Source of the DNA: Asterochloris sp. CNOR1
Taxonomy: Eukaryota; Chlorophyta; Trebouxiophyceae; Trebouxiales; Trebouxiaceae
Direction: 5' to 3'
Assembly: GCA_963969365.1 (NCBI GenBank)
Contig: OZ017759.1
Span: 1,674,001-1,738,000, forward strand
Length of the DNA: 64,000 bases
Positions 2,596-54,054 of this stretch are shown here, in pieces. The notes below the pieces were generated by a model. The model did not search any database. It had not been told where the DNA came from and saw only the letters and a program-made list of their open reading frames with translations. A program made the position numbers and the translations under genes. Positions within the stretch are counted from its first letter, which is position 1, and every line of letters begins with the position of its first letter.

Positions 2596-5500
2596 TCAGT
2601 CAGGCGCAAGCTGCTGTGACACCTTGCGCTTGCGCATGAGGGCTCGCTTGGTGGCCTCCAGCTTTGCCGCAGACCCCATGTTTGTGGGAGGGCCCCACTC
2701 GTGGCGGGCAATGCAGCAGGTCTGGGAAGCATGCCTGGGCAGGAACACCAGCTTCCACACCAGGCTGTACCGCGGCCTGCCACCAGCCAACTGAGACGGG
2801 GTGGACACCCTGTGCAGCACATCCTGCAGACCAGAATGTGCCCTCAAGAGCTGACATCCTCATGACATGAGCCCTAACGGGCCTGAGTTCCAATCATGGA
2901 CAATGTGTATCTGCTCTGCGCCGCTTTCCACACTGGCAATATACGAGAAGCCAGATCGCTGTCACAGCATGCTTGACAACAAACCCACCCTGATTGGAGG
3001 CAGTGGCAAAGGGTGACATCTAGACCACATGGCCCATGCCACACTCAAACCCCTACTCACGGCAGCAGCCTGGCTCAACTTACTGCAGCAGCACAGACTG
3101 CTTGTGCGCCCACCTGGTCCATGAGCACAGCCCTGAAGCGCTTGGGGCGCACCACTAGCCCAACATCGCACTCGTCGTCCAGGAAGAGAGTGTCTGCCTG
3201 CCAGTCGCGTGGCCAGCAGTCGTCCAGGTACAGCAGAAGGCTGACAAAGAGGGGCTTGCCTGCAGGTGGGCAAGCTGTTAGTGCAATGGGCTTTACAGCC
3301 CTCGCAGGTGGAATGCTCTGCCGCTCAATGCATCAGCAGACTGACACAGAAGACTGTGCCTGCAGGCAGGTAGGCAGGGGCCAGCAGTGTGCAGGGCCAC
3401 CTGCGCAAGCCATAACATGGGTTGCCTGAGGTACAGCAGCAGGCTGACACAAACAGGCTTGCGTGCAACCGTGCAATGCATGTCCTGCAAGCTGGTACCT
3501 GCCGACTACAGTAGTCAGACAGATGAGGGGCCCTGGCCCACAGCAATGCATTGCCTGCATGTCCAGCGTACTCGAGCAGCGCCCGTGCAAGGTTCAATAA
3601 GACGGCCAGGACTAATCTGTTCAGCAGCTCACAGTTCGCAACAGCCGCACCTGCACCAGGAGCTGCATCAACCGCTTCTGACAGGCTCAGCTGCAGGACA
3701 CAGCCTGCTGGCGCAGTTTCCGACACTGCCTGAGTCTCTGGCTGGCACCCTCTCGCTGGAGCTGAGATCACCTGGCTCCCCATTGAGTAAGCTGCCATGG
3801 GGTGGCGTCCAATGCACCCTCTCGCTGAAACACAGGTAACCGGGCTCCCCACAGGCATACACCGCTCACCTGGCTCCCCATTGACATAGCTGCCATGGTG
3901 GCGCGTCCAGGGCCCGTCAGGCAGGCTGGCAGGGTCTGCATCCACGTGGTAGCTGTAGCAGTCCCCATACACAGGCGCATTGCCCACAAACTGCCCGCAG
4001 TCCACTTCAGCAGGGCCTGCTCCCTGCAGGGGTGCCTGTGGCCGGGGTCCCTTGCTTTGGGCGCCGGGGCACCACTCATGACTGATAGGTGTTGTCTCTG
4101 CCCTGTGCACGTCCTGCTGGGACGGGCAGCCTGGGCTGAGGGCGCTGCTGTCGGCCAGCAAGTCTGCATCAGAGTGCAGCCTGGGACGGGCAGTCTGGCT
4201 GCTGCCTGCGGGCCCAGGGGACTGCGAGGTGCGCTGTTCCCTGCTGCCTTGCAGGGCGGCCCCCGTTCTGGCTGTCTGTGCAGTGACAGAGCTCTGGATG
4301 AGCTCTGCTGGCATGTGCACGATGTCGCACTCTGGGTAAAGGCGGCACAGGCGGGTGTGCACTTCGCGCACAGCAGGTACCTGAGCCTCGGCCAGCTGGT
4401 GCAGCATGTGGTCCTGGAGACCCCAGGTCTTGGGCAGCCCTGCACCACAAGGGCTTGCCGCTGAGCCTTGAGGGGCTGTGAGCAGCTCTGCACCAGATCA
4501 GCAGGTGGGTCGTGGGCATTGGGCAAGTTGCAGCTGGACTGTATACGGCCACAGCTGGTGCAGCATATGGCCACAGGGGCTCCAGCGGCCGTAGACAGCC
4601 CTGCATCACAAGAGGTGGCACATTTGTGGCAGTGAGCATATTGCAGCTGCAGCGAGCTGCAGCTGGTGCCAGAGGCTTTGAGCAGTCCCTGCACCACACA
4701 TGCAGGTGGATTCTGGGAAAGGACAGGTTGCAGCTGCATAAAGCTGCGGCTGGCACAGCATGTGGGTCCAAGTGCATTGAGCAGCCCGAGGGCAGATGGG
4801 TCTTTAAGCAGCTTGCCGCTGTGGCTGACGCGGCGCGCAGTCCCAAGCTGGGCGCTTTCGCAGGGACACCTGTACATTATGCGCCACTGTGCTCTGACAC
4901 AAAGCCTCTTTGGCCTGTATGGATTGCAGCCACTGCAGGGCCGCGTCTCACGCAGAAAGCCGCCAGACCGACTTGATTGGTATGGGTGGTACGCTTTGTC
5001 ATGATTCATGCTGACATAGTCGCATCAAGCCTTGCTTTGGCAACAGGCAGGTGCTACTCAGCATTGCATGCTGCACCTCAGGGCACATGTACTCACCTGC
5101 CCCATCAGCTGTCTCTCTCTCCCACTTGGAGGGAGGGGGCCCTTGGCTGTGGTCCCAATCCGGAGCTGTCAGCAAGTCCAGGAGCTCCTGCCGCTCGGCC
5201 TCTCCTGCAGAGACGACGAGGGCAGGTCAAGACAGAGGAGCCTTGCACCTCACGTGCAGCTCTCCTCATGCCTGGACGCACAAGAAGTGGTAAGATGAGA
5301 CAGCCACATTGCATGCATGCACCTTTGGGATCTGTTCCATCAAGCTGAGGCTGGCAGCTGCCATGCGGGCTTTGTCCCAATCATCCTGGCTCACACGGCA
5401 TAGCCAAGATCTTGCAGTGGCTGCCCCAACAGTCATGCTGACACCAGGCCTCCTTAGAGACCTCTGTTGTGAATGGCACAGTAACAGCAGCAACTGATCC

Positions 5501-7502: not shown

Positions 7503-7618
7503 CTACTTCTTCTTGCCCTTGCCCTGAGGCTTCTTGCCCAGCTGGATGCGCTTCATACTGAGCTTTGCCCCGCCTCCTGTTCCTGCTGGGGGCACCTTAC
7601 CCATGGAGCCCTCCAGGC
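7503..7618 (-). CDS. Last exon of an unidentified lysine-rich protein
   Basis: A minus-strand exon follows a tgcag acceptor at 7619-7623 and runs to a TAG stop at 7503. It encodes GLEGSMGKVPPAGTGGG followed by KLSMKRIQLGKKPQGKGKKK. A glycine linker followed by a polybasic tail suggests an RNA-binding or nuclear protein. The upstream exon is probably at about 7620-7860 but its frame is uncertain. I considered SRP19, which also ends in a GKGKKK-type tail, but nothing else here supports it. Confidence 0.4.
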
Positions 7619-8147: not shown

Positions 8148-9002
8148 CTAGATTTTGCCACCCTCAATGTACCTGAGCACAAACAGAATGGGCCAGGACA
8201 GGGGGAGCCCACCTGCATAGCGCCGATTGAAACGGTTGACGCGACCCTCATCCACGAGCACAGTTGACTGGTTGCCCTGGAAGAAGGGGTGGTTTCCGCT
8301 CCAGACATCCACATTGTAGCTCTCCTGCAGTACAGATGAGGCAGGTAGTTTGCAATAGGTGGTTTGGAACATGTAGCCACAGTGGTGTCAGTTCAGAAAC
8401 TGTGTGTTTGCTTTCCTGCAGCACAGAGGGCAAGCAGGTAGGAATGGATGCCCCAGACACCCGCATTGTAGCTCTTCTGCACCACAGGTAGGAGACGGCT
8501 TGTGACAGGTTGCGTATTGGCGTGATGGCAAGCAACTTACCACTGAAACATGCACCTGCAAAAGAATCAGTAGCCTGCAGGCAGCTCTATTGCCAACACT
8601 GTTCAGTTCACTGAAAGACAGGTGAACCACAATGAGGAGCTTACCTTGGACCCACTGACTGTCAGCACCTCCTCTCCATTGCAGAAGACCTTGGCCTCCT
8701 CAAAGTACTCTGGGTGGATGCCCTCCTTGCGCATGACAGTGCGGAGGCCGTTGGTGGGGCACTGCAGTGGAGGTGGCACACAGCTTGACATTGCTGCTAG
8801 ACTTGGAGTTGTCATGACAGGCTGCTTAGCCTCTCCACTTCTGTGGCTGAAAACAGAACTCTTAGCCTGCCAGGCCCTCACCTGCTGCAGCCGACCACGG
8901 TTACCAGCTAGAGACTGCCTAGCAGAAAAGACACGGCTGCCAGCAGGAGTCTGGTGTCCGGTGCACGTCTGCATGCTGCTGCAATTTAGGTGCAGGACCC
9001 TC
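8148..9002 (-). CDS. rpl31: Plastid 50S ribosomal protein L31 (bL31c), nuclear-encoded
   Basis: bL31 bridges the head of the small subunit and the large subunit of bacterial-type ribosomes. Three exons join in phase 0: 9002-8881 or so, 8761-8645 and 8324-8148. The mature part reads [20 protein letters not shown], then [20 protein letters not shown], then [13 protein letters not shown], which is diagnostic for bL31. The first exon ([12 protein letters not shown] onward) is rich in Ser, Arg and Ala with few acids, as expected for a chloroplast transit peptide. Two ATGs are possible, at 9002 and ten codons later. The tail after NRRYAGG may include a further unspliced intron. Intron 2 holds a decayed copy of the exon-3 start near 8400-8500. 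Confidence 0.92.
8300..8510. repeat. Pseudo-exon copy of the bL31 exon-3 start inside its upstream intron
   Basis: On the minus strand the real exon begins gagagctacaatgtggatg and goes on tctgga. A degenerate copy at about 8450-8485 reads agagctacaatgcgggtg then tctgggg, preceded by a gtgcag acceptor-like site. The flanking bases also correspond (ggtagtttgcaataggtgg against ggtaggagacggcttg). The unit is about 130-150 bp. Confidence 0.75.
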
Positions 9003-11484: not shown

Positions 11485-14214
11485 TCAAAGCCAGCGACCA
11501 ACCAGCAGGGCAATGATGGCCACCAAGATGATGTGTATGATATTGAAGCCCCCTCTGATGACTTTCTGCCGTGAGGCCACCCCTCCTGCCTGCAGGCAGC
11601 ATGTGACATCATGTTACCAGCTGTTCAGATATTGTTCGCCTCTGCCAGGTTGAGCCAGCACCAGAGCAAGGGGCTGGGACACTGTGCCAGGGCAGGACCA
11701 AGGGATTATGAGATACAATACTAGCCATGTCAATCATGGGGGTGGGAGTAGTACACTGAGAAAGTCCTGAGCACCGCAGGTCTAACATTGTGCTGAGCTG
11801 GCCCACTGGTGGCCGCCTGCTGTACAGGGGCCTGTATATGCACGCATAGGCTGCCCCAAAGCCCGAAGCCCTGTTGCTATCACCAGTGACACAATGCCCT
11901 GGGTCACCTGAACTGTGTACCTTGATTATGCAGCGTGTAAGCTGTGCAAGGTCAAGGGCACTGCCGCAGCACCTGATGTGTGTTTCAGCTGCCAGACATG
12001 CTCCACCTCTCAGTATCTGCCATCTCCTCACTGCCTCCAAGCATGCTTCCCCTGGGTGAATCCAGCTGTTACAGTGCACACCTGCGCTTCGTGCTCTGTT
12101 TTGCTTCCCCTGCCAATGCTATGGGGCCCTGCTGATGCTTAAGCAGCCTGGTCACCACAAACCTGCCACCATGTCCCGCCTTCTGCAGCATACGAGCACC
12201 CAACAGCCCCATGCAGCACCTCTCAGCAGAGCTCAGATGCCCTTAACACACTCAAGCTGCTTGTGAGGCGCACACCAGCACACCTGGCCGCCTTGCTCCA
12301 CCCTCCGGAGCATCTCCTTGTTGTCCCGCTCCAGCCTGGTGACCTGCTCGCGCAGCCTGTTGCGCTCCCGCAGCACTGTGGCCAGGTCGTCTGCGCCTAC
12401 ATGCATGCAACTGCTGTTCAGAGTGCAACCAGTGGAGGCTGGGGTGTCAAAACGCCTATGTCTGCGCACCGCATCTGGAAGCTGTTGTTACCTGCGCCTG
12501 TCAACATGCATCGTGCTCTGCTACCCTGTGAGAGCCTTGCCAGAGGACCATGCTGGATGTGGGTCTGCATGCTGTGGCCTCAGCGCCGTGGCGAGATTGT
12601 CTGCGCCTACAAGCCATCTAGTCAATGGGCAAGGAAGCCCCTCTCAAGAAGCACTATGCATATGCGTGCACATGCAGACTGCATGCCAGAGCAGAGTCTG
12701 GTGATATACAGGACGCCTGCCAGCATGCAGCACAGCAACCAGGGCACCTGCATGCTGTACAGATGTTGCAAGTGTGATCTCGAGCATGTGTGGCCTGCTT
12801 GGCAGGGCTTACTTGGGGCAATGGGGCAGGGCCTGGATTTAGCCATGTTCTGGCATAGCCACAGATTGATGAAGGGCCATGCTGGCACTGTGTGCAAACC
12901 CTCACCAGCAAAGGAGTTGGTGCCCAGGCAGAATAGCGCGTCCACCATTGCCAGAGAAGTATGAGAAGTGATATGCTGGTGGACTGTGCCCCTGGCAGGA
13001 GCCTGGCTCACCAGCAGATGTGTTGTGTCCTGGCAGGACCTGGGGTTCGCCACGTCCAGCGTCCCTGTTGGGCGAGGGCTCCTCCTCATTCCCTTCTGGT
13101 ACGGGGCTGGGCGGCTTGGGGGGGCCCACCTGCAGCAGCACATTGCGCAGTGCTCGTAACACAATATAAGAACAGCCAACGCCGCTCAAGCAGCAAGGCC
13201 AGCCTAGCGTGGAGTGCTGCAGGCTCCTTCCCTCATTCCCCGTGCACCAGGCTGGGTACTCTTAGAGGGCCACACCTGCAGCAGCATACAGACAGCAAGC
13301 TGGCCCTGATCATGCTGCAAGACCAGGTGCTTGCAGCTGATGCGTTCCTTTGCTCTCACTGCCATTTGAGCGCAGAAAGGGCCAGCCAGAAGAGATTTCA
13401 CCTGCAGCAGCGTAACAGCGTGCTCTGTGCCGAGCTGGCAGACTTGCACCAGGTTGCAATTGCAAAGCTTTGGCAGCCTGGCAAGGTATGGCCGGCTGTG
13501 CTCCCTGCAGCGGACTGCCGCCGGCATACTGCGCACAGGGCACATGGTGCGCAGTACTCTTCTCGGCTGGTTCCTCATTGTCTTGCACTCAGCAGACTCC
13601 AATGAAGCTGTTTGGCCTGTCTGCCTGCAGCATGTCTGCCACTGCTGGTGAACACCCTTCCCAGCTCCGAACTGCTCGCACCAGCGTGACACGCAGCTTC
13701 GACTGCTTGATCTCCTTGTTCTTGCCGGCATCGAAAGCATCGGGCAGCACGTCCTTTACGTCGTTGTCCACCTTCACCCACTGCACCAAGAATTTGTCCT
13801 TGCACTCTGCAAGATTGCCTGGGTACTCCCGTTGTGCCTGCAGCAAGGCATCAACAAGTATGTGGCACTCTGGCCATTTCAAAAGAACATCATTGAAGTG
13901 CACCATGCAGGCGCCGATCAGCAGCCCAGATGTTGGCGCCTGCCAGCAAGCTCACTGCAGCACAGGATGCATCAGAAATGACCAACATTCACCTGCATGA
14001 TGACCTGCACATCCTTTGTGGTGCCAGGGTCCACGAAGCCGCTGCTGGGCCTGACGCAGTATTTCTTGGGGCTGGTGGTCTTTACTTTGAAGCCCACACG
14101 CTCTGTGCCAGGGTTGTGCAGTGACAGAGTGACAGGGATGTTTTTCTTGAGCTCAAGCCTGAACTTGAGCTCGGTGGGGCTGATTTGCAGGTGTGGGCCT
14201 TCTGAGACAGTCAT
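11485..14214 (-). CDS. VAP27: VAP27-like ER membrane protein (MSP domain, coiled coil, tail anchor)
   Basis: VAP proteins sit in the ER and recruit FFAT-motif partners at membrane contact sites. Five exons join in phase to 235 aa: 14214-13993, 13837-13682, 13129-13012, 12390-12284 and 11589-11485. The MSP domain has LQISPTELKFRLELKK, FKVKTTSPKKYCVRPSSGFV and DPGTTKDVQVIMQ, followed by CKDKFLVQW and SKLRVTL. A Pro/Glu-rich linker (PPKPPSPVPEGNEEEPSP) leads to a coiled coil (LATVLRERNRLREQVTRLER) and a C-terminal membrane anchor (FNIIHIILVAIIALLVGRW). The K-x-TTxPKKYCVRP signature is diagnostic. The exon-3 donor was placed at the strong gtgagcc site because only that choice keeps phase. The long intron before exon 4 carries a second tctgcgcctaca block near 12600. 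Confidence 0.94.
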
Positions 14215-20500: not shown

Positions 20501-23500
20501 CAGAGGGAGCTGGCCGGCCAGCAGCTGGTTACCGCCCAGCAGGAGCTGCGGGGGCAGCAGAGCTCAGGGAGGGTGCAGGGTACAGAGCTGGCAGAGTTGC
20601 AGAGTGCTCTGCAGCAGGAACGGCAGCAGAGGCAGCAGCTCCAGCAGGAGCACTCTGCTGAGCTGGCAACGCTGCGCAAGCAGCTGCAGGTGAGGACTCA
20701 CTGGCAGCACCTGGGCAGCTGTGGCTGTGGAAGGTGCAGCAGCAGAGGTCGGCCTACCAGGCAGTGCTGCGCAGCAAGAGGTCAGGTCTCACAGGCAGCA
20801 TCTGGGGTGCAGCAGCAGAGCAAGGCTGCCAAACCATGTTGCAGGAGGAGCTGCAGGTGAGCCTGAAGAGTCGGCCCATGCGCTGCTGTGGCTTCGGAAG
20901 ACAGTGAACCTTGGCTGACCTTGACATGCTGCGCAGGCTGCTGCAGGAGGCATGCACACGCAGCCTCCGGGGTGCTGTGACAGTATGACGTGCAGCTGCA
21001 GAGCTTGGCTGATCTGCCCTGCCTGGGCAACAGCCTGTAGGTGAGGACATGCTGGCAGCATCTGGGGTGCTGTGGCTGTCAAATACGTCGCTGCAGAGCT
21101 GGGCTGACCTGACCATGCTGCGCAAGCGGCTGTGGGTGAAGATGCACTGGCAGCATCTGTGGTGATGTGGCTGCCAGAGATGTCGCTGCAGAGCTGGGCT
21201 GACCTGCCTTGCCTGAGCAAGCAGCTTTGGGTGAGCATACACACCTCGCCACATTGCACATCCAGCTGCAGGTGAGGGGGCACAAGCAGTATGCGGCCAT
21301 GCCAACCCAGCAGCTGCTGGCGAGGGCGCAGCAGTTTCTGCAGCAGCTGTAGCAGGAGCACCTTACATTTACTGAGCTTAGTGTGCAGGCAGCTTCAGGT
21401 GGTTTGCATTCATAGGCAGCAGCTGCAGGGGTGCTGTGTTTGCATGCTCCTGTGCAGACCGCAGCCGCAGGAGGGCAGGACAGGGGCTGGCTGCTCAAGC
21501 AACCTGCTGCTGCCGGCCTGCGCAAGCAGCCGCAGCCTGCACCCCTTCTAGCCGCCGGTGGTCTCCCAGCCTGAGGCAGCCACCCACCCGCTTGTTGTGC
21601 CCTGGCATTGCCAGGAGCATCGTGCCCTCCAGGCTGCAGCACGACGCGCTGCAAAGCCTGCATAGTTGCCTGTGCCAGGACTGCCTGTGGCTCAGTCGCT
21701 GTCCTGCCCTCAGGAGCGCTCAACCACAGCGGAGGAGCACCAGCAGGCAGCTGAGCGGCTGCAGGCGCGGCTGAGCGGGCAGCAGTCTGCAGGGGCTGAG
21801 CTGCAGGAGGAGCTGGGCGAGCAGCAGCAGCTGCTGCAGCGGGCGCAGGAGGCGCGCAGGGCTGCTGTGGAGGTGAGCGCCCTTGCAGGTGCCTCCTGCC
21901 ACTCACCAGCAGGAGGCGAGCAGTTGTGGAGGTGAGCAGCCCCACGGGTGCCGCCTGCACCCCTTGCATGGTGCAGGAGGCGCGCAGGGCTGCTGTGGAG
22001 GTGAGCACTGCCAGGGTCATTGCATACCACCTGTTCTGCTGTGATTGGTGGTGTGACCTTGTGATGCTCACACTGTGGCCAACAACCAGGTTGCAGCAGC
22101 CTCAGGTGGTGGTGCCCACCTGCGCACCTCTATAGGGGCCTCAAACAGGCGCTGAGGAAGGCCACAAGCAAAATCTCGGCCCTGCAAGGGGCAGCGCAGT
22201 TAGGACAAGACAGCAGTGGGAGCCAAAAGCACAAGCACTCACGAGTCATCCAATGCATGCGGACCAGCCTGCCCAGACTTGCCTGCAGGATGCTGCAACT
22301 GGTCAACAGGCGCTGGGCGTATCTGCCACAGCTGTGAAGCACTGCTTGAGCCGATGCACAGCGCATACCCATAGACAAGTCTGTACCCAATGGCACCCAG
22401 ACCACATTGGTGGTAGCAGTGCTGGCTGGCTGCGCCTGCCTGTAGGAGGCAGCACCAGTGCTTGGCACTGGCTGAGGCCACCAGCAGGCTGCAAGGGCTG
22501 TGGGGGGGTTTTGCAGCTCAGTTATCGACGGCAGAAGTTGAAACAAGGGCACCTTGGCGCCTCCCTCAACTGCTGGTGCCTGCCTGCAGGAGGCTGCAAC
22601 AGCCCGCCAGGCACTCACCGAGGCCACCAGCGAGCTGCAGGCACTGCAGGGCATTGCTGAGCAGCGCGATCGCCTGCAGAGGGGCCTGGAGGCTGCTCTG
22701 GCAGAGCGCAATGGGCTGCAAGATCAGCTGCAGAGCCTGCAGCAGTGCTCAGAGGCTGGGCTGCAGCAAGTCACTGCTGAGAGGGACGCGCTGCAGGAGC
22801 AGCTGGGCTCTGTGACTGCAGAGCGTGACCTACAAGGGCCCAAGGTCAGTTGCCAGCCAATCTGCTCAATCCACCTGATTATGTGGGGTTCAAAGTGGGT
22901 GGGCAGCAGTCACAAACGCGGGCCGTGCAATTGCAGATGGGCCTCGTCATGTCAGAGTCATACCCAGACCAAGGCATGCTGAGTCGCTTTGCAGCATCCC
23001 CATGTGCTGGCTCCTATGGTCCTTTTCAATGGTAAGCAGTTGCTTCGCACGTAAGAGAAGAGTGGCACAGAATTGGGGCGGGGACTGTCCTGCCTGCGGG
23101 TGACCGGGCCTCCAGGTGAAGTGGGGGGCCTTCTGTGTGCAGCTGGCCGCTGTAGCTGGAGGGCAGGCCCCGCAGCTGCACATCCCGGTACATGCAGTCA
23201 CGGCACCTTGACACTGTAGGATGGCTCCTCTGGACGTCACTGTGGGCGGGCAGCTTGCAATCTTACTGGGAGGGTCCTGCAAACATGACTGGGTACTGGG
23301 ACTTCAGAGTAAGGGGAAAAGTCCCAGAGCACTCAGTGCACCGCCTGCCCTTGCAGCCTGCAGGGCCACACATGGCTGTGCAGCCCTGATCAGCTCCAGG
23401 CACTCCCTGTTGCTTCCCAGGGACCCCTGTTGCGACTGCAGCAGGCACGGGACTCCAGCACTCACTCCTGGGGTGTGCATGCAGCAGGCAGAGGTGCCCC

Positions 23501-26500
23501 AGATCGACCTGCCTCCGCTGTGCATGTTGCTAGCACCAGATAAACGCCATCCCTTGATGCTCCTGCTGTGTATGCACCGGGCAGAGACGCATGACAGCAG
23601 CGCCTACTCTTTCAGCAGTGCGTGCAGCCACTTGTGGGGCACCAGCAGAAACCATCAGCATTTCTGTGTGTGCAGCTGGTAGAGCTGTACCAAGCTGCCG
23701 CGGCACCAGCATTCTCTTACAGCTGTGCACTGGCTGCCAGAGGGGCGTCAGCATTCGCGTGCAGCCAACAACCACACAGCGCCATCTAACCCTACCGAGC
23801 TATGCACACAGCCAATCGTGGTGATGGTTTTGTGTTTGCAGCTGGCAGAGGCGCAGAAGCTGCTGCAGCACCAGCAGGCGCAGCTCAAGTCGCTGCACAG
23901 TCAGGTTGGGCGCAGGGCAGAGCAGCAGCTGAAGGCTGAGACCGCCGCCTCAGCAGCCAGGCAGGACCTTCAGGTGTGCAGCCACCGCTGTGGTCAGACA
24001 TTGCGCCTGCAACACCTGTGGTGGATGGAGGCCTTGCAGGGCAGCTGCCGCATTGCAGCTGCACAGACATGCAGCATGTGGGTACACCCAGCAACAAGCC
24101 AGCACACTGCGTGTGCAGTGGCAGCGGCAGGCTTGTGCAGTGCACCAACTGAGCCAGGCCCCGCAGGACTCCACTGCTATAGCAAGAATGTCTGCTGAAT
24201 CATTTAACATTTCACGTCACCAATTGAGGGCAGACCTTCATTGCCCATGCAGAAGAAAGAGGGCGAGCTGCAGCTGTTGCAAGAGGAGCTGACCACTCAA
24301 AGGGCCCAGGTGCAGCTGCTGGAGGAGAGGCAGGGGCAGGCTGCTGACAGAGCAGCAGCTGCAGAGAGCGATGCAGCTGGCAGCCAGGCCAAGCTGCAGG
24401 GGCAGCTGGCAGAGGCCATGACTCTGCTGGACCAGCGGGGCAAGCAGGCGGGGCACCAGTCATGCTCGCCCGGAAGATGCATGTGCAGCGCTCAATCTTT
24501 TTGCCCTGGCAGAGTGCATCCCGCAGCGGCCTCCCTAAGCAGCCCTGACTTGGTTGCGTCAAACCTTTGCCGCTTTCTTGCTGCAGGCAGCACATGTGCA
24601 AGAAGCAGTTGAGCAAGCACTTCTGTCTCAACTTGTGTCAAGCCGTCACTGCTCTCCGCTGCAGGTAGCATCCCTGCAGAAGCAGCTGAGCAAGCAGCAG
24701 CAGCTGGCTGCCGGCAGCCAGGCATCTGAGCAGCTGCTGTGCGACACCCAGGAGCAGCTTGAGCAGTGCCAGGCAGACCTGCAGGAGTCCAGGCAGCAGG
24801 GTGCAGCCTCTGAAAGCACTGCCCAGGCTGCCAGGACGACTTTAGAGCAGCAGGGCAAGGCACAAGCTCAGTTACAGCGGGAGCTGAAGTCGACTCTGCA
24901 GCGCCTGAGCCAGCTTGAGGCTGAGCGCTCGTGTCTGCAGAAGAGGGCGCAGGAGGCCGAGAGCCGTGCACAGGATGCTGCCGCTGCGCAACAGGTAAGG
25001 GTTGACAGACTGTGGCCTGCAGATGCAAATGATAACAGCCCAGCCTTGGGGGCAGGACAATGCTGCTGTGCTGAAAGGAAAATCGGGCAGTACTGAGTAC
25101 CTCACTGCTGCATCACAGCATGCACGAGGCTGAGAGCACTGCTCTGCTGCAGGGGACACCTTCAGCACAGGCTCAGATGCTGTGGTCGTCTGCTTTTTGA
25201 GTGCAGCACCATCCTCTGAGTGCTACGTGTGCACACGTGGCTGCTCTGCTGCAGGAGGTGCAGCAGGTGAGGCACCAGCTGCGGGAGGCTCAGGGTGAGC
25301 TGCAGCAGCGCCAGGAGCACCTCACCAGGGAGCAGCAGCGCTGCGACGACCTGGAAGCCCAGCTGCTCATGCAGGTAGGAGTCAAGCAAGACCACCTGGG
25401 GAACATACAGGGATCTCTGGGGTATGTTTGTAGGTTGCTGGCTGGCCACTGCAACAGCGTCCTGGCCAGACGCCAGTCGCAACCTTGAATTGCTGCAGGC
25501 CTCTGGTGAGAATCTTCTTGGCCTCCTGCCAAACAATGCTGGCTGCCAAATCAAGTCTCACAATGTTGCGGGCCTCCCATGAGAAGGAGCTCGCACAGGC
25601 AGGCCTCCTGCAGCAAAGCTAGCTGCCAAAACTAGCTTCATAGTGTTGCAGGCCTCTGGTGGGGAGGGTCATGCACCAGCAAGCCTCCTACAACAGTGCT
25701 GGCAGCAGAATAAACTCCCTCAGTATTGCAGGCCTCTGATAAGGAGGAGCTTGCTCAGCCTGCTCTTTGGCCCCAGCCTTTTGCCAAACACTGCAGCACT
25801 GACTGCTTCAGGCCTCAATTGGGTGGGGGCGGCCTTGGACAGCCCATTTGCTTGTCAGATGACAATTAGCAACAACAGACAGTGACTTGCTGCAGGCCTC
25901 TGATGAGGAGGAGCTTGCCCAGGCCAAGCAGGCACTGTCTGAGACCCGCGCGAGGGAGCGCATGGGGCAGAAGACGATCGCTGACCTGCAGCAGAGGCTG
26001 AGCAAGGCCTCGGGCTCTGCGCAGGCGCAGGTGCAGCAGCTGCAGCACCAGATGGGGCAGGTACGTGCCGCGCATTGCACGTCACAGGCTGCTGTCCTGC
26101 CTCCCTTGCTTGCTGCGTCCCTCTGCAGAGGCGGCACTCTAGTCTGACAGAGCAGCAGTGTGTGGTGAGGGCGGCTGGTTCTGCTAAGGTGTGTCCGTGA
26201 AACAACCAGAAATTATCCAGGCTGAACTGCAGAATGTTGCCAGTGGCACTGCAAATTGCACGAGACAGCTTCAGGGTTCATATGCTGGCTCAGTGCCACC
26301 ATGATGCGCCTGCCCTTCAGACCAACTGCTGCATATCTGCCACCCTGCAGGTGGCACAGAGCCACAGACAGCTTCAGCGGCAGGTGCAGAGCCTGTCAGC
26401 CGAGCGTGACCAGCTGGCTGCCCAGCATGAGCAGAGGGAGGGACACTTGCTGGAGCTGCAGGGACAGCTGGACCTACTGCGTTGCACGGGCAGCGAGTCA

Positions 26501-27521: not shown

Positions 27522-33321
<5,800 letters not shown>

Positions 33322-35982: not shown

Positions 35983-38900
35983 GACCCAGAGAAGTTCAAG
36001 AGTCGGATGCACAGCCTGGCATATGGCAATGCCATGATGGCAGCCGCAAAGGATTATCAGAAGGTATCATACCTTGAGAGCCTGCAGCAAGATGTGCTGG
36101 GACCGCCAGCTTAGCGTGCCATCTTACATGCTTGTCTGCTCATCAGCTGCAAGCATAAGGGCTTGGCAGTGCTGCCTATGTGCCCAAGGCCAGGCACCCT
36201 TCAGCCAGCTGGGTAGCCTGCACTTGACTATCCAGTGGCGCTCAGGCTCGCAGTTCTGCACCTCAGCTTGACAGGATGATTGATCAGCTGTGTGCTCCTG
36301 CACCAAGCAGGACATGCAAAGCTGCCTCTCAGCAGCAGCCAGTCAAGGCCACTTACACATATTGCGCTGCAGAACATACAAACAGGTGACCTGCACTAGC
36401 AGAACCCCAGGCTGGACCCTCCTGTCGGCTTTGCAGTGCCTCACAGATTCAGGACCCCTGATGCAGGGATCAGCAGGACACTAGATGCGATGACAGCAGT
36501 GACTGGTAGCACGCAGGAAATTGCAGTCTCCCCATATTCAGCATGTCTGCTGCAAAGGTAGCAAAATGCCGGCTGCGCCCCAGTGGCACCTGGTGCGCAA
36601 CTCCCACGGATAGATGAAGTGCTGTGCTGCAGGAGCGGCAGAATGCAGGGATGACTGCCTGCCGCCGGTTCAAACCCTGGCTTCCCTGCTTCACAACAGC
36701 ATTGCCCCACCTCACATAAGCAGCACCTCACGACCGCAGGCCCGCGCGTGCCGCAAGAGCAGCAGCCTCCTGGCAGCAGCAAGTCTGGGGGAGTCTGTCA
36801 GATGGCCTGCTGTGCTGCAGGAGCAGCATGTCGCAGAGCCAGCGGCTTCCTGGCAGCATCAAGTCTGGGGATTGACAGAAATGGCCTGCTGTGCTGCAGG
36901 AACAGCAGGATGCAGAGAGTGCAGCCACACGGCGGCAGCAGGTCCGGGAGATCGACATAGATGACTTGTTAAATGACCCAGAGCTGGAGCGCCTGCATGC
37001 AGAGCGCCTGGCTGCCGTACAGCAGGAGGCAGAGAAGCGACAGAAGCTGCAGCGCCAGGGGCATGGAGAGTACCAGGAGGTGCAGGAAGGTGGGCGCAGT
37101 TGAGAGCACGAATGTGCAGTGTGCCATGAGCAAGCAGCAGGAAGCACACATGCTGCAGGAGCTGTAAACAGAGGCATGGGCCATACCAGAGGTGCAGGAA
37201 GGTAGGCAACACTGCAGGGGGACTGCATCCAGTGCATTTGGTGGAGTGCTGGTGTCCACAGGACAGGATGTACCGCCTCTGCGTGAGTGGGATGGTGTGC
37301 AACAGTCATGCAGTGGGAAAATCTGAAGAAGCCACAGGGGCAGGAGCAGGTGGCGCTGGAAAATGCGGTGATGCAGGGGAAAGTTGACAAGGTGCAGCAG
37401 CCAGCAGAAGCGGCAGAGGCCACAGCGGCAAGGGCTTGGGAACACTAGAGGTTCTAGAACAATATAACCTTGTGAGTGGCCATCTCAGCGGGCTGGTGGG
37501 CTGAAGCTTTGAGTGTGTGATGGGGCATGAGGGTCTCCGTATGTCAGTCATGGTGGTGGGCCTGCTTTGCAGCACAGCAGATGTGCCAGATGCATCCTGC
37601 CTGCCTGCTGGAAACACAGCCACAGAGCCACCCTCTCATCCCCAGGCTTGCTGCAGATGATGGCCTTCCAGGGGTGTGCTGCAGCTGGGCGCCAGGCTGT
37701 GACCCTGATCTGGCAACTACCTGCTGCCCTGTTGGTGTGGCACTGACCCAAAGGCACTGTTAGGCATGACAGCATCTCCACATGTCGGGCGTGTGATTTG
37801 CTGTCCAGGGTTGGGGCTAGATTTCGTGCAGGTGTTCAGCCATCTTCGATCACTCTCCGACAAGCAGTAGTGTGTGCCACAGCAGCAAAGGCTGCTTGCG
37901 CTACTGATCAGCAGGCATGCCCATCAGCAGCTGGACTTCTGTCACGCAGCGACTAGTAGGCGCAAGCACAGCCAGGCGTGTTGGCCCTGTCAGCTTGGGT
38001 TGGCTGCGCTGTCCTGCCAGGTGTTTCGTGGAGGTCATCACTGCAGCATTCACTGCCCAGCAGCACAGCAGTTTATCACCTCTGAAAGCTCCTGATGTTG
38101 CTTCATTGCTGTGCTGACCTGGGGGGGCCTTCCTGGCAAGTGTCTCCATGGCAGAGCAGCCAGAGGGCCTGTCCTGCTTTGCAGCAACAACTGGGAGCCA
38201 GCACAGCCAGGCATGTGCCTCTGAGCTGTAAAAGCTACCAGAAAGCCCTGCTGGCCTGCAGGGGCTTTCTGGAGGTAGCAGCCAATGCCAGAGCAGCATT
38301 CCTGAGCGCCAGCACAGCCTGGCATGTGGTTACGAGCTGTAGCAGGCACATCTTCGCTGCCCTGCAGGGGATTTTCTGGAGGTTGTCACTAAGGCAGAGC
38401 GGGTGGTCTGCCACTTTTTCCACCGGGACTTTGAGCGCTGCAAGATCCTGGACAAGCACTTGGCCATCCTGGCACGGAAATACTTCGACACCCGCTTCAT
38501 CAAGTTGTCTGCGCCGGTGAGGCCCAGGACATTGCGGTGGCCACAGCTTGAGGTTGCGTGGCATCATGCACCGTAGGCTGGTCTCATCCAGCCGGCAGTG
38601 CCTGTGGGTGCCTGCCTGCCCACCTGAGGGTCTGCGAAAACTTCTCCTTTGAGGGAAGTAGCGAAACAGATCTTCTCTGAAAGTCCCTGCTTCAAAGCTG
38701 CTCAAGGGCAATGCAAGAGTGGGCCCTGCGTATGTGGCCCACCCTGCGCCTGGGGAGCTGTTCAAGCTTCTGTCCCTTTTCAATGATGTTGGGAGGCAGC
38801 TAGATTTACCCTGTGCCTGCAGGATGCCCCCTTCTTCACTGTAAAATTACAGGTCAAGTTACTGCCCTGTCTGTTGTGCTTCCTCAATGGTGTGGCCACT

Positions 38901-43522: not shown

Positions 43523-46500
43523 TCATGTAAACTCTTGTCGAATTTGCAGCTGCAACTCCTTCAACCGGGTGATGATTTCTGGCTTCATGAGCGCTGCTGC
43601 CTCTTGCAGCATGCTGCCAGATGCATGCTGTGCCTCATAAGCAGCCAGTATAGCGTCCACCACCATCAGCAGCCTGGCTGGCGTCCTGCAAGTATGTATA
43701 CACAGAATTTCAAACTGCAGAGGTGCAACTTCTGATGTCACCACCGCCAGCACTCTGCATGCTGGCCTGCACACTTACAGGGCAGACCATGGGCAGGACT
43801 GCAGACAGCCTGGGCTCAGGCCATGCATGGCCACAAGCTGGAAGCCTGGGGTGAAGGCAATCTGGCAGCTGTAAGGCAGCGACTATGCTGGAGCTGCCAC
43901 TGAATGGTGACAGAGGCGCAGCAGTCTGCCACAGCCTCAAAGAACACAGTGCTGCAGGCTGCAATACATTCACACTGCCAGCCGGGCCTCCCCTCGTTGA
44001 TCCACCTCAGGCAAGCACTCATGGCTAGTAGGCCCCACAGCAGCTAAGACCAAGAATAGTAGCCACATAGCCCCCACCAGCACCCTGTGCCTGCAGTCCT
44101 GCTCTGCCCCAGCACTGCAGGGCTACCGCTGGCCAAGCTGTCCCAGCGGCCTGCGCCAGGGTGCTGAGACCACCCCCTCGGCCTACAACCCCAACACCGG
44201 CGACTGAGACTCACGTTGACAGCAGGTCCTGGCCTCCAACCTCCACCTCTGGCCCTGGCGTGAAGGCCTCTGTCAGCGACGCCCGCCGCTGCTGAGGGTC
44301 CTCCATGGAGAGCAGATGCTTCATGATGCGCACCTCCTTGGGCTGCTGGCGTGCTGCAGTCTCCTTGGCCTGCATGTGGAAGGCCGGCGGTGAATCCGGG
44401 ATGCATGCAGTGAGTATATTTGCATCGCAAGCTGCCACAGCAAAGAACAATGACTGCAGACAAGCTCCATGGGCTTGCTGCTGCAGAGCTGTGTCCTTGG
44501 CCTGGACAAGGCTCCTCATCATGCATGGTGCGGCGATATGTCCTGCTGCTCAGCCTGAGGATTGCAGAGTGCCTCGTCAGGCAGGCGCCCTTGTCCAATC
44601 GGGGAGGAGCACTTAGGCTGGACACATGCATTGGAGACATCCTGCTTGGGCTGCTCTCAAGCTCAGAAGCAGGCTGCCATGCATGCATGGGCGGCCTTTG
44701 TGAAGGGTGCAGCGACTCTCTCAGGATCCCTTTCAGCAAGTGCACCACTGACACTTGGGCTGAGGCAGCCTGGTGTGAACAGGCAGCATGCTTGTGTGAC
44801 TATTCTAGCGGCTCCCCGCCCACCTTTAGCTACATGTGTGTCGTCACAGCCTCTATTCAGCCAGCCGGATGCAGCCAGCATTCACTAGCTGGTGGTCAGC
44901 CGCACCCTGACCTGCAGTCACACCACACCCCAGCCCTACCTTGAAGTACAGGTGTGCCATCACGTCCTTGACCTCTTCCCGAGTGTAGTCTGTATCCTTT
45001 ACGCTATTGTGCGCCTTAGCGAGGGTGAGCATCAGTGCGGCATCCAGCTGCCCCTGGGCTGCCATTGTGTCCAGCTTGGTATCCATCTCCTGCAAGAGCA
45101 CGTGTCAAGTTGTGGTGCCTTCCTCACAGCAAACCATTCCATCTCCTGTGCAGAGCTACGAGGCCATGCCCTGCAGGGTTGGGTACAGAAGCTGGGCTGC
45201 GGCAGTACACAGATGCATCTGGACAGCCATTCTGTGTGTTAGCAGCTGCTCAAGAACTGCATCAAACCTTACAACGAAGCGGAGCAGCCGTTGAGGTCTT
45301 GAGCTGCCTCAAGTCACACTCGAGAGACCCCCTCACCTCAGGGCTGTCCATGGTCAGCAGGGCCTTGCACATGGGCTGCGTGCTATGCTGTAAAGAAGCG
45401 CGACTGGAGCAGCATTTACCTCAAGGCTGCCCACAGTCAGCAGGTCTTTAAACTTGAGCTCAGCCAGCTCCAGCTGCGAGGAGTCCTGCTCCACGGCGTC
45501 AAACGCCTGTGCCAGCGCAATCAGCTGCGTGCCGACCCGTTTGAGCTCTGCAAGCAAGCTGGGCTGTGTCAGCAGGCAGAGATGTATGTGGTAAGCCACA
45601 GCTGTCCGGCTCCTGAAAGCACCCTGATGATGTGCAGAGGCCCATAAAGGATACGCCACAAGACTAATAGCTGCCCTCGCTGTGCGCTCCCTGCTGCTGG
45701 CCTTGCATGGCAGGCCCAGCCAGCCGCTGCCAGCGAGGTGGGTGGATCAACTGAAGATGTGGCAGGTTGGAAAGGCTGTTATGGCATGGTACACAGCTCA
45801 GAGGGCAGCCAGCGTCAGGGACATTGCATTACAGAAGCCAACAGCATCTATAGAGACCAGCTGGGGAGCAGGCAGAAACGAACCTTCCTGTCGGGCCTTG
45901 TCCTTGTGCGCTGCATCGACGAGGCTGGTCAGGAACTCAAAGAACCCTGTGGTCAGGTCCTTGCGTTTTACCGCGACGAGCCCCTCCCAGGTGAGGGCGT
46001 CTGCGGCCTCAAAGAACTGCAGGGTCTCCCTGTATGCCGTGGTCTCCTCATGCACCTGCACCATGTGGACCCGTAGTGCATCTGCTGTACCATTGCTTGT
46101 CATACCCAAGAGCCAAATCTCCCTGCAGGCTGTTGTGTCCTCACACACCTGCATCGTGTGGTAGCAATGCGTGCATGTGCCTTACACTGCCTGCATATTG
46201 GTGCCAAAGGGCCTGGGCATGGAGCCTGCTCCCACAGTGGTGCCTGGCCAGTCACTTGCATGGCCTAGGCCCTCTGCACACCTTGAACAGTTGCAGCCTC
46301 AACAGCTCAGCAACTTGTCCGTCTGGTGCAAAGGGCTCGCTGGCCAGCTCGCCGGCCAACATGTCAGGGTCCGCCAACCCAACGTTCTGAGGCAATAGTG
46401 CAGCGTGGTGAGACCACCACCAGTCGAATTCAGAGGCGGCGGGGCCTGACACTTACCTCCTTAAGGTAGCGGTGCATGTCCCTGTCATGTTATGCACATA

Positions 46501-48847: not shown

Positions 48848-51800
48848 TCAGATGTTCAGTGACTGACTCAAGTCGAAAGCTTCATTGCTGCTCAGACAGG
48901 GGGTCTGTGAGCTCATGCCTGCGCCGCCTCCCATAGCTCCAGAAACCATGGACTGCAGGAAGGGCACCACTATTGCTTGCAGCATTGAGCAGGAGTGGAG
49001 TGATGCCTTATGCGCTGCTTTGGAGGCAAGCTCCGAAAGCTTGCATTGGAGATGGCTACAAGGAGTGGGCAGGAACGGCACAACTTTTTCACGCTCCTTG
49101 CATGATTTCACTGGGCGATGCAAAAGGCGGGACTGCAGCTCCGCCATGACTGTGGTGCAGCTGGCTCACCATGAGAATTCCATCCATGCTAAGCCCATTG
49201 CTGAGCAGGGCACTCATGCCACCACCGCCCCCCTTGCCGGCCTTCATGCTCTTCAGCGCACGGTGCATGCTGTGCAGCAGGTCTCCGTAGCAGATGTGAA
49301 TGCCGAATTGCTCGACAGCCTGTGTGACCACACAGAGCACTTCAAATGCTTCCACTGCAAGAGACTGATGCCTGCTCTGATGAAAGTCACCGCAGCCGGT
49401 GGATTGGGCCACCGCTACACCGCCTGTGCATACTGTCAATGAGGTTGCAGATGTAGAAGTCGTACTGGTCTACAGCGAGTGTGGGAACACAAAGCAGATG
49501 TCTACTACAGTGCAGCACTTGCTGCACGAGGCAAGCGCTCCCACTGCTCTGCAGGCGGTGCTGACAGAGACAGAGCATCCTGAGTTGCTAGGCCACCACA
49601 ATGGGCTCAAACACCATGATGCTGGCGCCGAGAGGCTAGCTGGACAAAATGAGCCTCACTGTTGCTGGCAGCCATCCTTGACTGGCCACCTGCCAGCCTG
49701 GCATGAAAACATGCTGTCACAACATGCTTCACAGGCACCTGCCAGCTCAGCAGACAAGAGCAGAAGCCACGGGCAGCCATGCTGCACATGCAGGCTGCCA
49801 GGACGGGCAGATGCAAATGCTGCTGCAGGGGCCAGGCTCCAATGACATAATGCGCTTGAGCAGACAGACCTGGATGAACGAAAAGGTGGCAGCTCCAGTG
49901 GAGACGTTGCCCGACAGCTGATTCGTGTCTGCTGCAGTCTGCTCATCTGTGCACGCCGAGAACTGGATGGCCAGGCCCCCATGTGTGCCCTGCAACACCA
50001 GAAGCTCATATGTTGGCTGCAAAACCTCTCCTGTCTGTGATGTGGCCCCTAAAGCCTGCTCACATGTGACTGACTGCACAAATAAAGCTCCTGCAGCTTG
50101 ACAAGGCTACATGCAGCCCTGCGTTGCCCAGCTCAGGTGGTACGCAGCTCAGGCGATGCCCAACCGTGCAGCGTCTGCAGCTCTGCAAGAAGCCACCCTG
50201 TCAAGGTGGAGAATGGCTCAATGCAGCACCTCCCTGCAAGTGACCCAAGTGGTGAGCCAGCCAGGCCGCCAGGACATGAGCATCAGGCAATTGCAGCAGG
50301 CAGTCTCACCTTGTAGGCCCGGGTGGGTGGCTCTGCCACCCAGTTGACCCTGCCCTGCTGGAACTTGCAGATGTAGGGCATGTCCAGCACAGTGCCGCTG
50401 TGGCAGGCGTCGATGATGGCATGCAGCCTGACCTGCAGGCAGGCACAGCAGCAGGTGGCCAGGCTGTTGGACAACTCTGCAGCAGTCATGCCCATAGCCG
50501 CGGCCACCATCTGTGGCCTTCTTCCTTATCCTAGCATGCATGCCCAGCTGCTCCCCTAGCAGCTAGGCCACAAAGCAGGCACCATCAGCGGGCAGCAGGC
50601 AAGTTTCAGACAGGGAGCTGCTTGCGTAACCCAAGTGGCATGGTGCATTTGGGCCGCGCCCTTTGCAAGGCAGGCAGCAGCTTGCTCACCCCTGGTGGCA
50701 GTGGGTTGCACAGCAAAGCATTCAGCTCATCATCAATGATCATCCCTGCTGTCTTGAAGTCCACAGGGCACCTGCAGGGCAGGGCAGCCAATTTCCCAGT
50801 CAGGTGCAGTGTCGCAGGCACCAAGGAACTATGGGGTGCCAAGACCCTGCGTGATCTGCAGATGGGCACTTGCAGCTCTGTAAGCAGAGGGTCTGCCATA
50901 TGCTGCCCAGTATCAGAGGCACAGGAAGCCCCACACTGCTTGAGGCATTGACATGCTCAGGGCTGCTAGGTGTGCCTCAGAGGCGCAGCTGCTTCAATGC
51001 GGCAGGCACAGAGTGCAGCAGGCAGGCCCAGAGTGCAGCAGGCTCAGACTCCAGGCGCAATGCACAGGCACACAGAGGCCAGGTACGCCGTCCACTGGAT
51101 CATGGCTACGCTCACAGCCTGGCGAGCTGAAGGTCAAAGGGTTCATTTATGCGGCGTAAGGGGCCAGGCAGTGCCCTTGGTGGTGGGGGGTGGCTGGGTG
51201 GGAACAGGCAGTGAGTCTCTACCAATGCTCATTTCCCAAGCTGGTACTATGCCTGCCCACGAGTGCAGTGCAACCCGCTGTGGCTGCTGGGTGGGCACTC
51301 ACAAGGTGTCGTTCATGCCATCCCTCTCCTCGCCCAGGGGGTCTCGCTGCTGGGAGCCATGCCCTGCATGCACAGGCGCAAGAGTGACCACATCACAGCT
51401 TGTGTGTCGAGGCAGCAGAACGTCAACTTGTGTATCTGGGCGGTGCAGCCTGCAAGCAAATGGGCACCCGCCCCTCATGCCCCTCAGGGCCAGCCACACC
51501 ATGCCTGTGTCAAGACAGCATGCAAACAGGCCAGGAGCCAAGGCTGCTTGCTGTTACTTCTCACCTGAGTAGTGGAAGATAAGACTGTCTCCAGGGGTCA
51601 AGTCAGTCATCAACCTGTGGGCACCACATTATTGATGTGAGCTGCAGGCTGCGAGAGAGTTGGTGGCTGCCTGTGCAGGAAGCATGCCGCACAAATTATA
51701 GGCCAAGTGATGAGGAGCTCAGGTCACGCAAGGCCTGGCCGTTTGAGGCCAAGCAGGCAGATGGGGGCTGTCGGAGATGCCTGCTGCTTTCAGGCATGGT

Positions 51801-54054
51801 GTGCACAAGCGTCTCAGGGGCACCCAGGCGGGCGCAGTCTGCTAGACAGGTGCTTTGCTGCCTTTTGAGCATGTGTGCTGAGGGCCTCTAAGGGGTCTCA
51901 GGGCACCCAGCCTCACCAGCGAATGCCCTGGCGGATGTTGTAGCCTGTTGGCACCCGTGTGGGGTCCTGCATCTCATCTGCAGGCCACAGGAGGCAAACT
52001 CAAGCATGCAGCAGGCTTTGAGGATCCACTGCTTGCACCATCCTGCAGAAAGCATTGCAGACGCCTTGTAGCACTGGTGCTTGCAGCAAGGCACAATTTG
52101 AAGCATGGGTGTAACAACCAGATCAGGACGCAGAGAATCCACTGCCAGCAGTTGGGTGCGCCCTATCCAGCCCAAGCAAGAAAGCTTACCCGTCATCTGC
52201 AGAATGCCGTCATTGTGGAAGCCAAAGCGTGTCTTGAGCAGGTGCACCATGCAGTTGCTGTCGTTGATGCACCCGTTCAGCTTGTTGCTGGATCCAATGT
52301 CTGCATGAACACCTCTTTGGGAGTCAGACAGTGTGACATGCAAGCAGCATCAGGTGCCTTCTGAATCCGAATAGAGAATGAAAAGGCCTGAACACCAGGA
52401 AATGCTGCTAGGCACCACCCATGCTGATGCTACTAGGCAAGTGCATGATTCAGCGTCAGCATGCTGCCGCAAGACCTTGGCATGCAGGTACCTTTCTGAG
52501 AAGCTACGATGCTTCCTGGTGGAGAGGCCACTACGAGTGCATACAGCAGGTCGCACGCATGGCTCACAGTTGATGCCAATTGTGAAACACTTGCGCTTCC
52601 CAGTGGGCACCTGCCCGGCCAGGTTGGCTGCACTGTTGTTGCTGAAGCCAGCGTGCTGCATCTGCCATGACTGGTCCCCAGGCCCCTGTCCCTGGTGCGT
52701 CTGCATGTGCATGCCTGAGGGCGGCTGCGACCCTGCAGGGTGGGAGCAGCACATGGTGCCTCCCCACTGGGCGCTGGGGGAGGCTGGGCACACTGCACTT
52801 GGACATGCTGATGATGTGGAGCAACTTGCTGGTTGTTCCAAGCATTGCTGCTACTGTGCAGCATGCACTCTCTTACAGATAACTGTCAGCAGCAGGGGGA
52901 CCCTGCCAGCGCCTCAGTTTCAGCAGCACAGCACAACCCCTCTGCAAGGGACCACAGTCAGCTGCATAGCTGCAAGTGCTCAGCAGGACACTCAAGGAGG
53001 TGCAGAAGGACATCAAATGCCTTACAGGTGGCAACACCGCCTGCAGTCGCAGGAGGCAGCACTGCCGGTCTGTATCAGAAACTGCATCTGCCCCAGGCCC
53101 AGCAGCAGAGCTGTTCACTCCTCAAAGGGACTCACCAAACTGTGCAGGGTACTGCATGCCTCCAGGGCCCGGCGCCATGGCTTGTCCCTGCCACTCCATG
53201 TTGGGCTGCCCCATGCCTCCCTGGATCTCATTCCCCCTGGGAGGGCCTTGGTACTGGCCGCCATAGCCACCCTGTGGCTGCCCCTGGCCATAGGGCCCCC
53301 CCGGGCCGTAGCCCTGCTGGCCGCCATAGCTGCCCTGAGGCTGCCCATACCCCTGCTGGGCCCCGTAGCTGCCCTGAGGCTGGCCGTACCCCTGCTGCGG
53401 CTGCTGGCCGTACCCCTGCTGCGGCTGCTGACCGTACCCCTGCTGCTGGCCATACCCCTGCTGCTGGCCATAGCCAGCCTGGGGAGCCCCATAGCCGCCC
53501 TGCAGCACAGGCAGCACCAGAGGTGGGCTGCCAGGGCAAGCATCGTGCTGCCCCACACATGAGAAGGGTTCCATCTCGCTACTGAGCAACAATTGAATGC
53601 CGGCAGGGCCATGGCCAGGGGCACCTGCAGGGAGGCTACAGTCAGGGGCAGCAGCAGGGATTCACGATGACACTCGTCTCCATGTCAAGCAGAGAGACAG
53701 ACATCAAATGTGGTTGATGTCTTCTGGAAGGCGGTCAAGGTGGAGTGCAGCCACACAAGCTGCCAGCACCTTCGTTAGATGCCTCAAAATGGTGCACAGG
53801 GCCTCTACAGCTTGACCTGAGGCAAACAGCTGGGCAGTGGGTGCTCACCTGCTGGTAGCCCTGCTGCTGCTGATTGCTATACTGACCGCTGCTGCTTCCT
53901 GGACCAGTGCCTGCAAGAAGGCAGCCATCAGGCTTAGCATAGAAGACCTTTGAAGCATTCAAGATCATCATGCAGGCGGCAAATGTCACAGGCGCTGCTT
54001 CAAAACCCACTGCTTACCAGTTATCTTGTCCACAAACTTATCGATGAAGTTCAT
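48848..54054 (-). CDS. MCA1: Type I metacaspase with Gly/Tyr/Gln-rich prodomain
   Basis: Metacaspases are Arg/Lys-specific cysteine proteases of plants, fungi and protists. Thirteen exons join in phase to 496 aa: 54054-54018, 53910-53849, 53499-53136, 52732-52568, 52300-52190, 51977-51917, 51614-51565, 51363-51303, 50771-50690, 50432-50310, 49989-49870, 49319-49170 and 48952-48848. The prodomain ([13 protein letters not shown], then repeats of GYGQQQ and [10 protein letters not shown]) replaces the zinc finger of some plant forms. The catalytic domain has [32 protein letters not shown] (catalytic His), [18 protein letters not shown] and [17 protein letters not shown] (catalytic Cys). [28 protein letters not shown] and YGDLLHSM complete the fold, ending [12 protein letters not shown]. 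All key residues are present, so it looks active. Confidence 0.95.
49265..49500. repeat. Decayed copy of metacaspase exon-12 start in the upstream intron
   Basis: On the minus strand the exon starting at 49319 encodes [20 protein letters not shown]. About 155 bp upstream (49425-49480) a copy encodes [19 protein letters not shown]. The match spans about 60 bp of coding-like sequence. Confidence 0.85.
53255..53500 (-). repeat. In-frame GYGQQQ / [10 protein letters not shown] repeats in metacaspase exon 3
   Basis: The exon encodes about ten tandem units of 5-12 residues based on [14 protein letters not shown] and [10 protein letters not shown]. The DNA is a near-tandem repeat of ctgctgctggccatacccctg type on the plus strand. 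It forms the low-complexity prodomain and is likely length-variable. Confidence 0.9.

Follow-up and report, generated by a model that had tools for sequence, protein, structure and literature searches.

Introns of the green alga Asterochloris sp. CNOR1 were probably lengthened by old tandem duplications that spanned exon-intron junctions. The pattern was first described, in an earlier note made from the letters alone, for a stretch of 64,000 nucleotides of GenBank assembly GCA_963969365.1 (contig OZ017759.1, forward-strand positions 1,674,001 to 1,738,000; C14:1674001-1738000 in our numbering), which we call the window. Our analysis covered 314 kb of a 56.4 Mb genome of 21 contigs, taken as four blocks (104 kb of C14, which holds the window, 80 kb each of C1 and C5, and 50 kb of C8), so that 250 kb lie outside the window. 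GC content here is 58%; an Asterochloris genome is described, in the extract available, as having 56 Mb, 10,025 genes, 9 introns per gene and a GC content of 56-62% over 98% of the genome (PMC6652019).

Exon edges and their own introns

Exon-intron junctions were taken from the predictions of a purpose-written, trained simple gene finder, whose final set held 106 genes and 425 introns with a median length of 276 bp and a splice consensus of CAG/GTGAGC ... CTGCAG/G (the slash marks the junction). We aligned the 60 bp on the exon side of each edge to the edge's own intron and to 150 length-matched slices of foreign introns; removal of introns shorter than 80 bp and of those near block ends left 406 of the 425. 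Seventy of the 812 exon edges matched their own intron above all 150 foreign slices, where 5.4 were expected (34/406 upstream and 36/406 downstream edges; 2.7 expected each). The earlier note had proposed a comparison with random intron/exon pairs, and it is indeed the own introns that carry the higher similarity.

The match was specific to the own intron. When that intron was reverse-complemented, only 10 of 812 edges won (4 upstream, 6 downstream; Fisher p=1e-12), and a different intron of the same gene gave 7 of 788 (4 and 3 of 394 each; p=1e-14), these control introns having been trimmed so as not to exceed the own intron, which is a slight handicap where they were shorter. Queries from the exon interior, 60-120 bp inward, won in 12 of 504 cases (6/245 and 6/259; p=2e-6), a control that itself exceeds expectation (6 and 6 vs 1.6-1.7 each). 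A second set of gene models gave 28 and 30 wins, each out of 302, against 6 and 5 for the reverse complement, and an earlier run on 330 introns agreed (32 and 35 wins). The pattern is present in all four blocks and is not confined to the window (32/268, 11/194, 20/210 and 7/140 edges by block), with the C14 block, which holds the window, richer than the rest.

Local repeats followed the same lines. At a BLAST score of at least 32, direct repeats outnumbered inverted ones by 182 to 8 (173 direct repeats remained once those of low trinucleotide complexity were removed), and the window alone held 26 tandem arrays with a period of 30 or more, where nine Markov shuffles had 3-5 apiece. Within internal exons, repeat coverage fell with distance from the nearest end, from 9.3% at 0-19 bp through 8.1%, 4.7% and 2.5% to 1.7% at 80-99 bp.

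Copies were detected in 67 of the 406 introns, so that the description of introns as built from copies holds at present sensitivity for a minority of them. Those with a copy had a median length of 449 bp against 269 bp for those without (p=3e-6), and their share rose with length: 6% of introns of 80-150 bp, 11% and 12% in the next two classes, 33% at 400-700 bp and 26% above 700 bp. This correlation is not an effect of search space, because the controls were length-matched. Own-intron specificity together with the length correlation supports the conclusion, already advanced in the earlier note, that introns grew by duplications across splice junctions.

Alignment by BLAST across the junction itself gave 66 copies. 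They belong to 52 of the 850 junctions predicted, spread over 31 of the 96 genes with more than one exon; a pair was left out if each of its copies held a junction, as was any copy lying 15 bp or less from another that had been counted. Four of the 66 sit in predicted exons. The note had spoken of two to five copies per junction: ten of the 52 junctions do have two to four (two in 7, three in 2, four in 1), and the other 42 have one. Offsets range from 69 to 505 bp, mostly 69 to 210, and multiples of three are not preferred (23/66). Identity by codon position is nearly flat (0.83/0.80/0.76), as expected for a decaying copy set against a conserved exon, and the copies have the look of noncoding sequence. 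Among 57 copies that could be located from exon sequence alone, 28 carry the splice dinucleotide at the extrapolated place (13/29 AG, 15/28 GT) against 7% AG and 4% GT at random intron positions, while 27 further exon-anchored alignments could not be placed. The splice site is therefore part of about half of the placeable copies, and the claim that it is always included was too strong. In ten chosen proteins, 10 of 15 copy-bearing junctions lie inside the best Pfam stretch, as does that of bL31c; the other 5 of the 15 are without such support.

We envisage the following course. Local tandem duplications, perhaps by slippage or end joining, would have arisen in this algal lineage with copies mostly 70-210 bp apart, and some would have straddled a splice junction. 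A unit covering the exon edge, the splice site and the end of the intron, if duplicated as a whole, would create two successive junctions, and the mRNA would be unchanged if the spliceosome took the outermost one (the last acceptor or the first donor). The inner copy would then become intron, making it longer by one unit, and would decay, whereas the exon part of the outer copy, under coding selection, would remain a recognisable template.

Several observations weigh against this account. All exon-intron junctions used here are predictions from self-made gene models. In exon-anchored copies, mismatch climbs from about 34% at the AG to 62% at positions 7-16 bp inside the intron, and likewise from 29% to 60% on the donor side, a rise that would fit decay on both sides and equally a unit that ended near the splice site. 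For short alignments the rest of the tandem unit is weakly supported (26 pairs with a mean z of 1.11 against 0.37, p=0.04), and the exon parts, with medians of 27 and 39 bp, fall below the approximately 58 bp simulated under uniform placement. Repeat coverage also goes back up, to 4.3%, at exon positions at least 100 bp from either end, which probably reflects coding repeats in long exons. Finally, young copies are few: an identity of at least 90% over at least 40 bp is reached by one of 70 junction pairs, by one of the 28 pairs of exon with intron and by none of the 29 within introns.

Duplication may also have given rise to introns as well as lengthening them, as the note had suggested. An intron born in this way would lie between the two copies, and its donor and acceptor surroundings should then be alike. 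Donor surroundings resemble acceptor surroundings as the top-ranked match in 8 of 407 introns against 2.0 expected (only introns below 80 bp were removed here), and at p<=0.05 in 32 against 20.4; of these eight, one or more (window 13130-13275) probably depend on a small exon that was predicted wrongly. Birth of introns by duplication is only weakly supported by this signal.

Age, possible junction preference and competing origins

Because young copies are so few, a steady process does not fit: it predicts far more long, strong matches, and the observed score distribution fits old ages. A simulation with ages even from zero gave ratios of edge-involving to intronic arrays of only 0.8-1.3 and was dropped, since its score distribution does not fit. 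The scarcity of young copies suggests that the duplications form an old pulse and not a steady process.

By position, the arrays comprised 53 that span a junction, 21 that pair exon with intron, 15 intergenic, 8 purely intronic, 3 exonic and 8 other. In the exon-intron class, the exon copy ends within 31 bp of a junction in 22 of the 23 pairs listed. One reading of these counts is that splice junctions were preferred sites of tandem duplication, or that junction-spanning duplications were favoured, beyond what tolerance and preservation provide; we regard such hot spots as possible, if doubtful. Arrays that touch an exon edge outnumber purely intronic ones by 74:8 (53:8 without the exon-intron class), junction-plus-intron pairs number 61 against 19.3 under random placement, and the exon parts are short, close to the junction and shorter than simulated. 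With units of 40-120 bp, moreover, hot-spot factors of 3-5 fit better than 1 by about 4.8 log units, and under weaker exon constraint the gain is about 3. However, old events placed uniformly would already give ratios near 6:1 at 0.30 substitutions per intron site and near 21:1 at 0.35, and 74:8 falls between the two, intron-intron pairs decaying twice as fast. With units of 60-160 bp and normal exon constraint, a factor of 1 comes within 0.5-0.7 log units of the best fit. The joint fit with smaller units or weaker exon constraint is best at a factor of about 2-5, and values up to 8 stay within 2 log units of the best. Overall, the fits are compatible with a factor of about 1-5 and do not establish a hot spot. 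Junction-spanning pairs outlast intron-intron pairs because selection holds their exon copy; given old events, the simulations can in this way account for the apparent focus on junctions as an effect of ascertainment.

With the hot-spot factor set to 1, the number of duplications needed in some 138 kb of intron sequence comes to 351-562 over the four fits; at a mean unit of 80-110 bp these would amount to 28-45% of intron DNA, a strongly model-dependent figure. A wider reading, to which we give somewhat less credence than to hot spots by themselves, would set junction hot spots within an ancient pulse, would have duplications, visible and decayed, supply at least a quarter of intron DNA, and would treat exon edges as a fossil record, with roughly a third of the visible decoys equal in motif to real sites. 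If exon edges do keep a readable record, any genome whose exons are conserved would allow the steps of intron growth to be counted and given a rough date, with no need of relatives.

The growth of introns across their junctions would leave behind copies that resemble splice sites, and it might be held that these are functional alternative sites or exons kept for regulation. Judged by motif score, 36 of the 66 copies stand above the 25th percentile of the real sites predicted here, and the 5th percentile is passed by 20 of 28 copies at donors and by 29 of 38 at acceptors. In 20 of the 66 the copy equals or outscores its own real site; in donor copies the GT shows 16/56 mismatches against 36/84 at +3 to +5 (p=0.11). 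Yet the acceptor AG is kept no better than positions -3 to -5 (20/58 vs 30/87 mismatches, p=1), and each copy matches one junction, not a whole exon with two. Only 6 of the 46 copies with an intact dinucleotide would permit an in-frame, stop-free insertion, and the other 40 would give a frameshift or stop (4 copies were unclassifiable in this test). With no preference for multiples of three, an AG that is not specially kept and mostly frameshifts or stops, we rejected functional alternative exons, and consider regulatory use of the copies improbable. Selection against decoys is not claimed either: in BLAST-selected acceptor copies the AG seemed to be lost more than the adjacent TGC, and in the exon-anchored set it was not. 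There is no clear selection for or against the putative decoys. Some predicted small exons within arrays (e.g. 13276-13287 and 21977-22000) are probably decoys mistaken for exons. Arrays of this kind amount to natural competitions among similar splice sites in which the cell would have to pick the outermost copy, so that rules of splice-site choice could be tested by RNA reads.

We think it very unlikely that the similarity reflects nothing but low-complexity, CTG/CAG-rich sequence and the strong splice consensus (CAG/GTGAGC, CTGCAG/G). GTGCAG and GTGCTG are by far the most frequent GT-hexamers here, but foreign, same-gene and reverse-complemented introns share this composition and match far less, exon-only queries leave out the intronic splice consensus, and direct repeats stand far above inverted ones; the intron controls thus reject it. 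As to the splice signals themselves, the acceptor CTGCAG is strong throughout the sample (T and G each about 93%), and phase-0 introns are in excess (237/106/82). Least credible of all is that introner-like or other mobile elements with splice sites built these introns, since, although introners have been reported chiefly from lineages that evolve fast, green algae among them (PMC9860276), a dispersed family was not found among the 66 copies in the 314 kb (taken as 120 bp each, 1 matches elsewhere at a score of at least 40 and none at 50 or more; random intron pieces 0), and three arrays match only themselves genome-wide in a search that did not report their known local copies as separate hits and so is insensitive to such divergence.

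Copies in the genes of the window

Across eleven gene regions of the window, 20 of 132 edges matched their own intron at p<=0.02 against 400 foreign slices, where about 2.6 would be expected. The earlier note had named seven genes with such copies, and six are borne out, with positive edges spanning 16 introns: the 2OG oxygenase (3/8), bL31c (1/2), the coiled-coil gene (7/44), the ArfGAP region (2/18), PLP3 (2/12) and the At4g37920-like gene (3/6). A VAP-like gene adds 2 of 8 edges, in 2 introns. Exon-edge copies were not found at this threshold in SmD2, an mL-like gene and an SDR gene (0/4 each), nor in the metacaspase (0/22), the seventh gene, which had to be given up as an example. The metacaspase array at 53245-53506 lies almost wholly in a coding exon and is possibly what was mistaken for junction copies; it is a coding tandem repeat (QGYGQ-type) of the N-terminal exon, ending near the acceptor.

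As a check on the models, Pfam matched 7 of 10 window proteins (L31, ArfGap, thioredoxin, caspase domain, LSM, HEM4 and MSP), the ArfGap and thioredoxin matches falling under the curated cut-off, and no Pfam match was found for the other 3; all 10 proteins picked from 24 outside the window had one. The names 2OG oxygenase and At4g37920-like are those of the earlier note, and Pfam gave the models of both no match. The PLP3 protein matches phosducin-like proteins.

On the minus strand, a 2OG oxygenase intron (3260-3869) contains copies of the exon edge on its donor side and of that on its acceptor side; the two edges score 50 and 43, each higher than any of the 150 foreign slices. The acceptor junction of this gene at 4393-4451, whose first exon base is 4439, is the template for an intronic copy, with exon start, at 4552-4612 (minus strand; offset 159, 75% over 61 bp). 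The bL31c acceptor junction (8298-8335, minus strand) lies at residue 30/31, within a match to PF01197 over residues 3-67, and its intronic copy with exon start is at 8450-8487 (minus strand; offset 152, 84% over 38 bp). In the VAP-like gene, also on the minus strand, the acceptor junction 12368-12404 is copied at 12578-12614 (81% over 37 bp) and the acceptor junction 13077-13140 at 13222-13286 (75%), the latter copy being modelled, probably wrongly, as a small first exon.

In the coiled-coil gene, on the plus strand, an exon end and donor at 20657-20753 (last exon base 20689) align four times within 20771-21199, to intronic copies at 20771-20806, 20914-21070, 21023-21164 and 21103-21199 (68-81%). 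Further along, the acceptor junction 24633-24696 has a copy at 24554-24619 (76% over 66 bp), and the acceptor junction 25883-25929 has three within 25486-25684 (25486-25510, 25564-25600 and 25644-25684). At 21842-22006, a 37-bp stretch with a donor has a second copy 128 bp off at 97% identity, which makes it look younger than any other junction copy listed for the window; the gene model there has a 24-bp exon repeating the protein segment EARRAAVE.

Within the ArfGAP region (minus strand), a neighbouring gene model without a Pfam match has an acceptor junction at 28405-28453 (first exon base 28444) with copies in 28484-28628 at offsets of 79 and 156, where the TRF period is 76. Two donor junctions of the region, 30237-30416 and 32691-32749, are copied at 29878-30061 (72% over 187 bp) and 32412-32472 (80% over 61 bp). 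In PLP3 (plus strand), the acceptor junction 36887-36918, with first exon base 36900, has copies across 36620-36883 of intron 1, at 36620-36651 (offset 267) and 36746-36883 (offset 80). Intron 2 of PLP3 was said to repeat both of its edges. Alignments exist on both sides: the exon end and donor at 37020-37095 are copied at 37135-37207 (75% over 76 bp), this junction lying within the phosducin-like alignment, and the acceptor junction 38302-38383 is copied at 38191-38276 (74% over 87 bp). The acceptor-side copy, however, is mostly intron sequence (66 of 82 bp) and misses p<=0.02 in the exon-only test. The At4g37920-like gene has a copy of its acceptor junction 46025-46068 at 46118-46161 (minus strand; 80% over 44 bp). 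Elsewhere in the window, a single-exon frame on the minus strand at 59708-60349 looks by eye like a fragment of a non-LTR (long terminal repeat) retrotransposon reverse transcriptase.

Relation to known systems

Small duplications within genes are said to be common and sometimes to affect splice sites, as Gao and Lynch reportedly found in 2009; to our knowledge, that work does not describe introns as having gained length from junction copies that later decayed. The open-access papers among the matches listed are, as far as the extracts of them go, single-case or model papers (PMC4974935, PMC3443670, PMC9860276, PMC6652019, PMC12712428), and in them a genome-wide account of intron lengthening by such copies was not found, which is not to claim its absence from print.

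The closest parallel is the potato RdRp gene, in which, according to the extract available (PMC4974935), a tandem duplication across an intron-exon boundary led to the gain of an intron. There as here, the duplicated unit crosses one existing boundary (seen at 52 of 850 predicted junctions in our sample), and copies of splice signals end up within the gene. The potato case is one recent event that made a new intron in one gene, whereas the events here are many and old and appear to have made existing introns longer, the original junction being kept.

In the AGGT model, as the accessible parts of PMC3443670 and PMC4974935 present it (Rogers 1989; Hellsten 2011), tandem duplication of an exonic AGGT segment creates a new intron. 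The likeness lies in the tandem duplication of a segment holding splice-like sequence, and the direct, local duplication of gene sequence that belongs to the model is present here (182 direct vs 8 inverted; own-intron specificity). The duplicated unit of that model is exonic, its AGGT supplying both of the new splice sites, whereas here it includes a real junction and intron sequence, and the main outcome is a longer intron. The earlier note had related the pattern to this model; what is seen departs from it in that an exonic AGGT unit was not found and the units span an existing junction.

Introners, dispersed transposable families, are described as having supplied green algae with intron sequence (PMC9860276). 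The copies described here are likewise a source of intron sequence in a green alga. The same introner occurs in many introns of a genome, whereas our copies match the adjoining exon and not other places in the sample. The pattern is best read as a genome-scale variant of a known process, not as a new kind of system; its points of interest are the apparent preference for junctions, an age that suggests a pulse, and how strong the putative decoys are.

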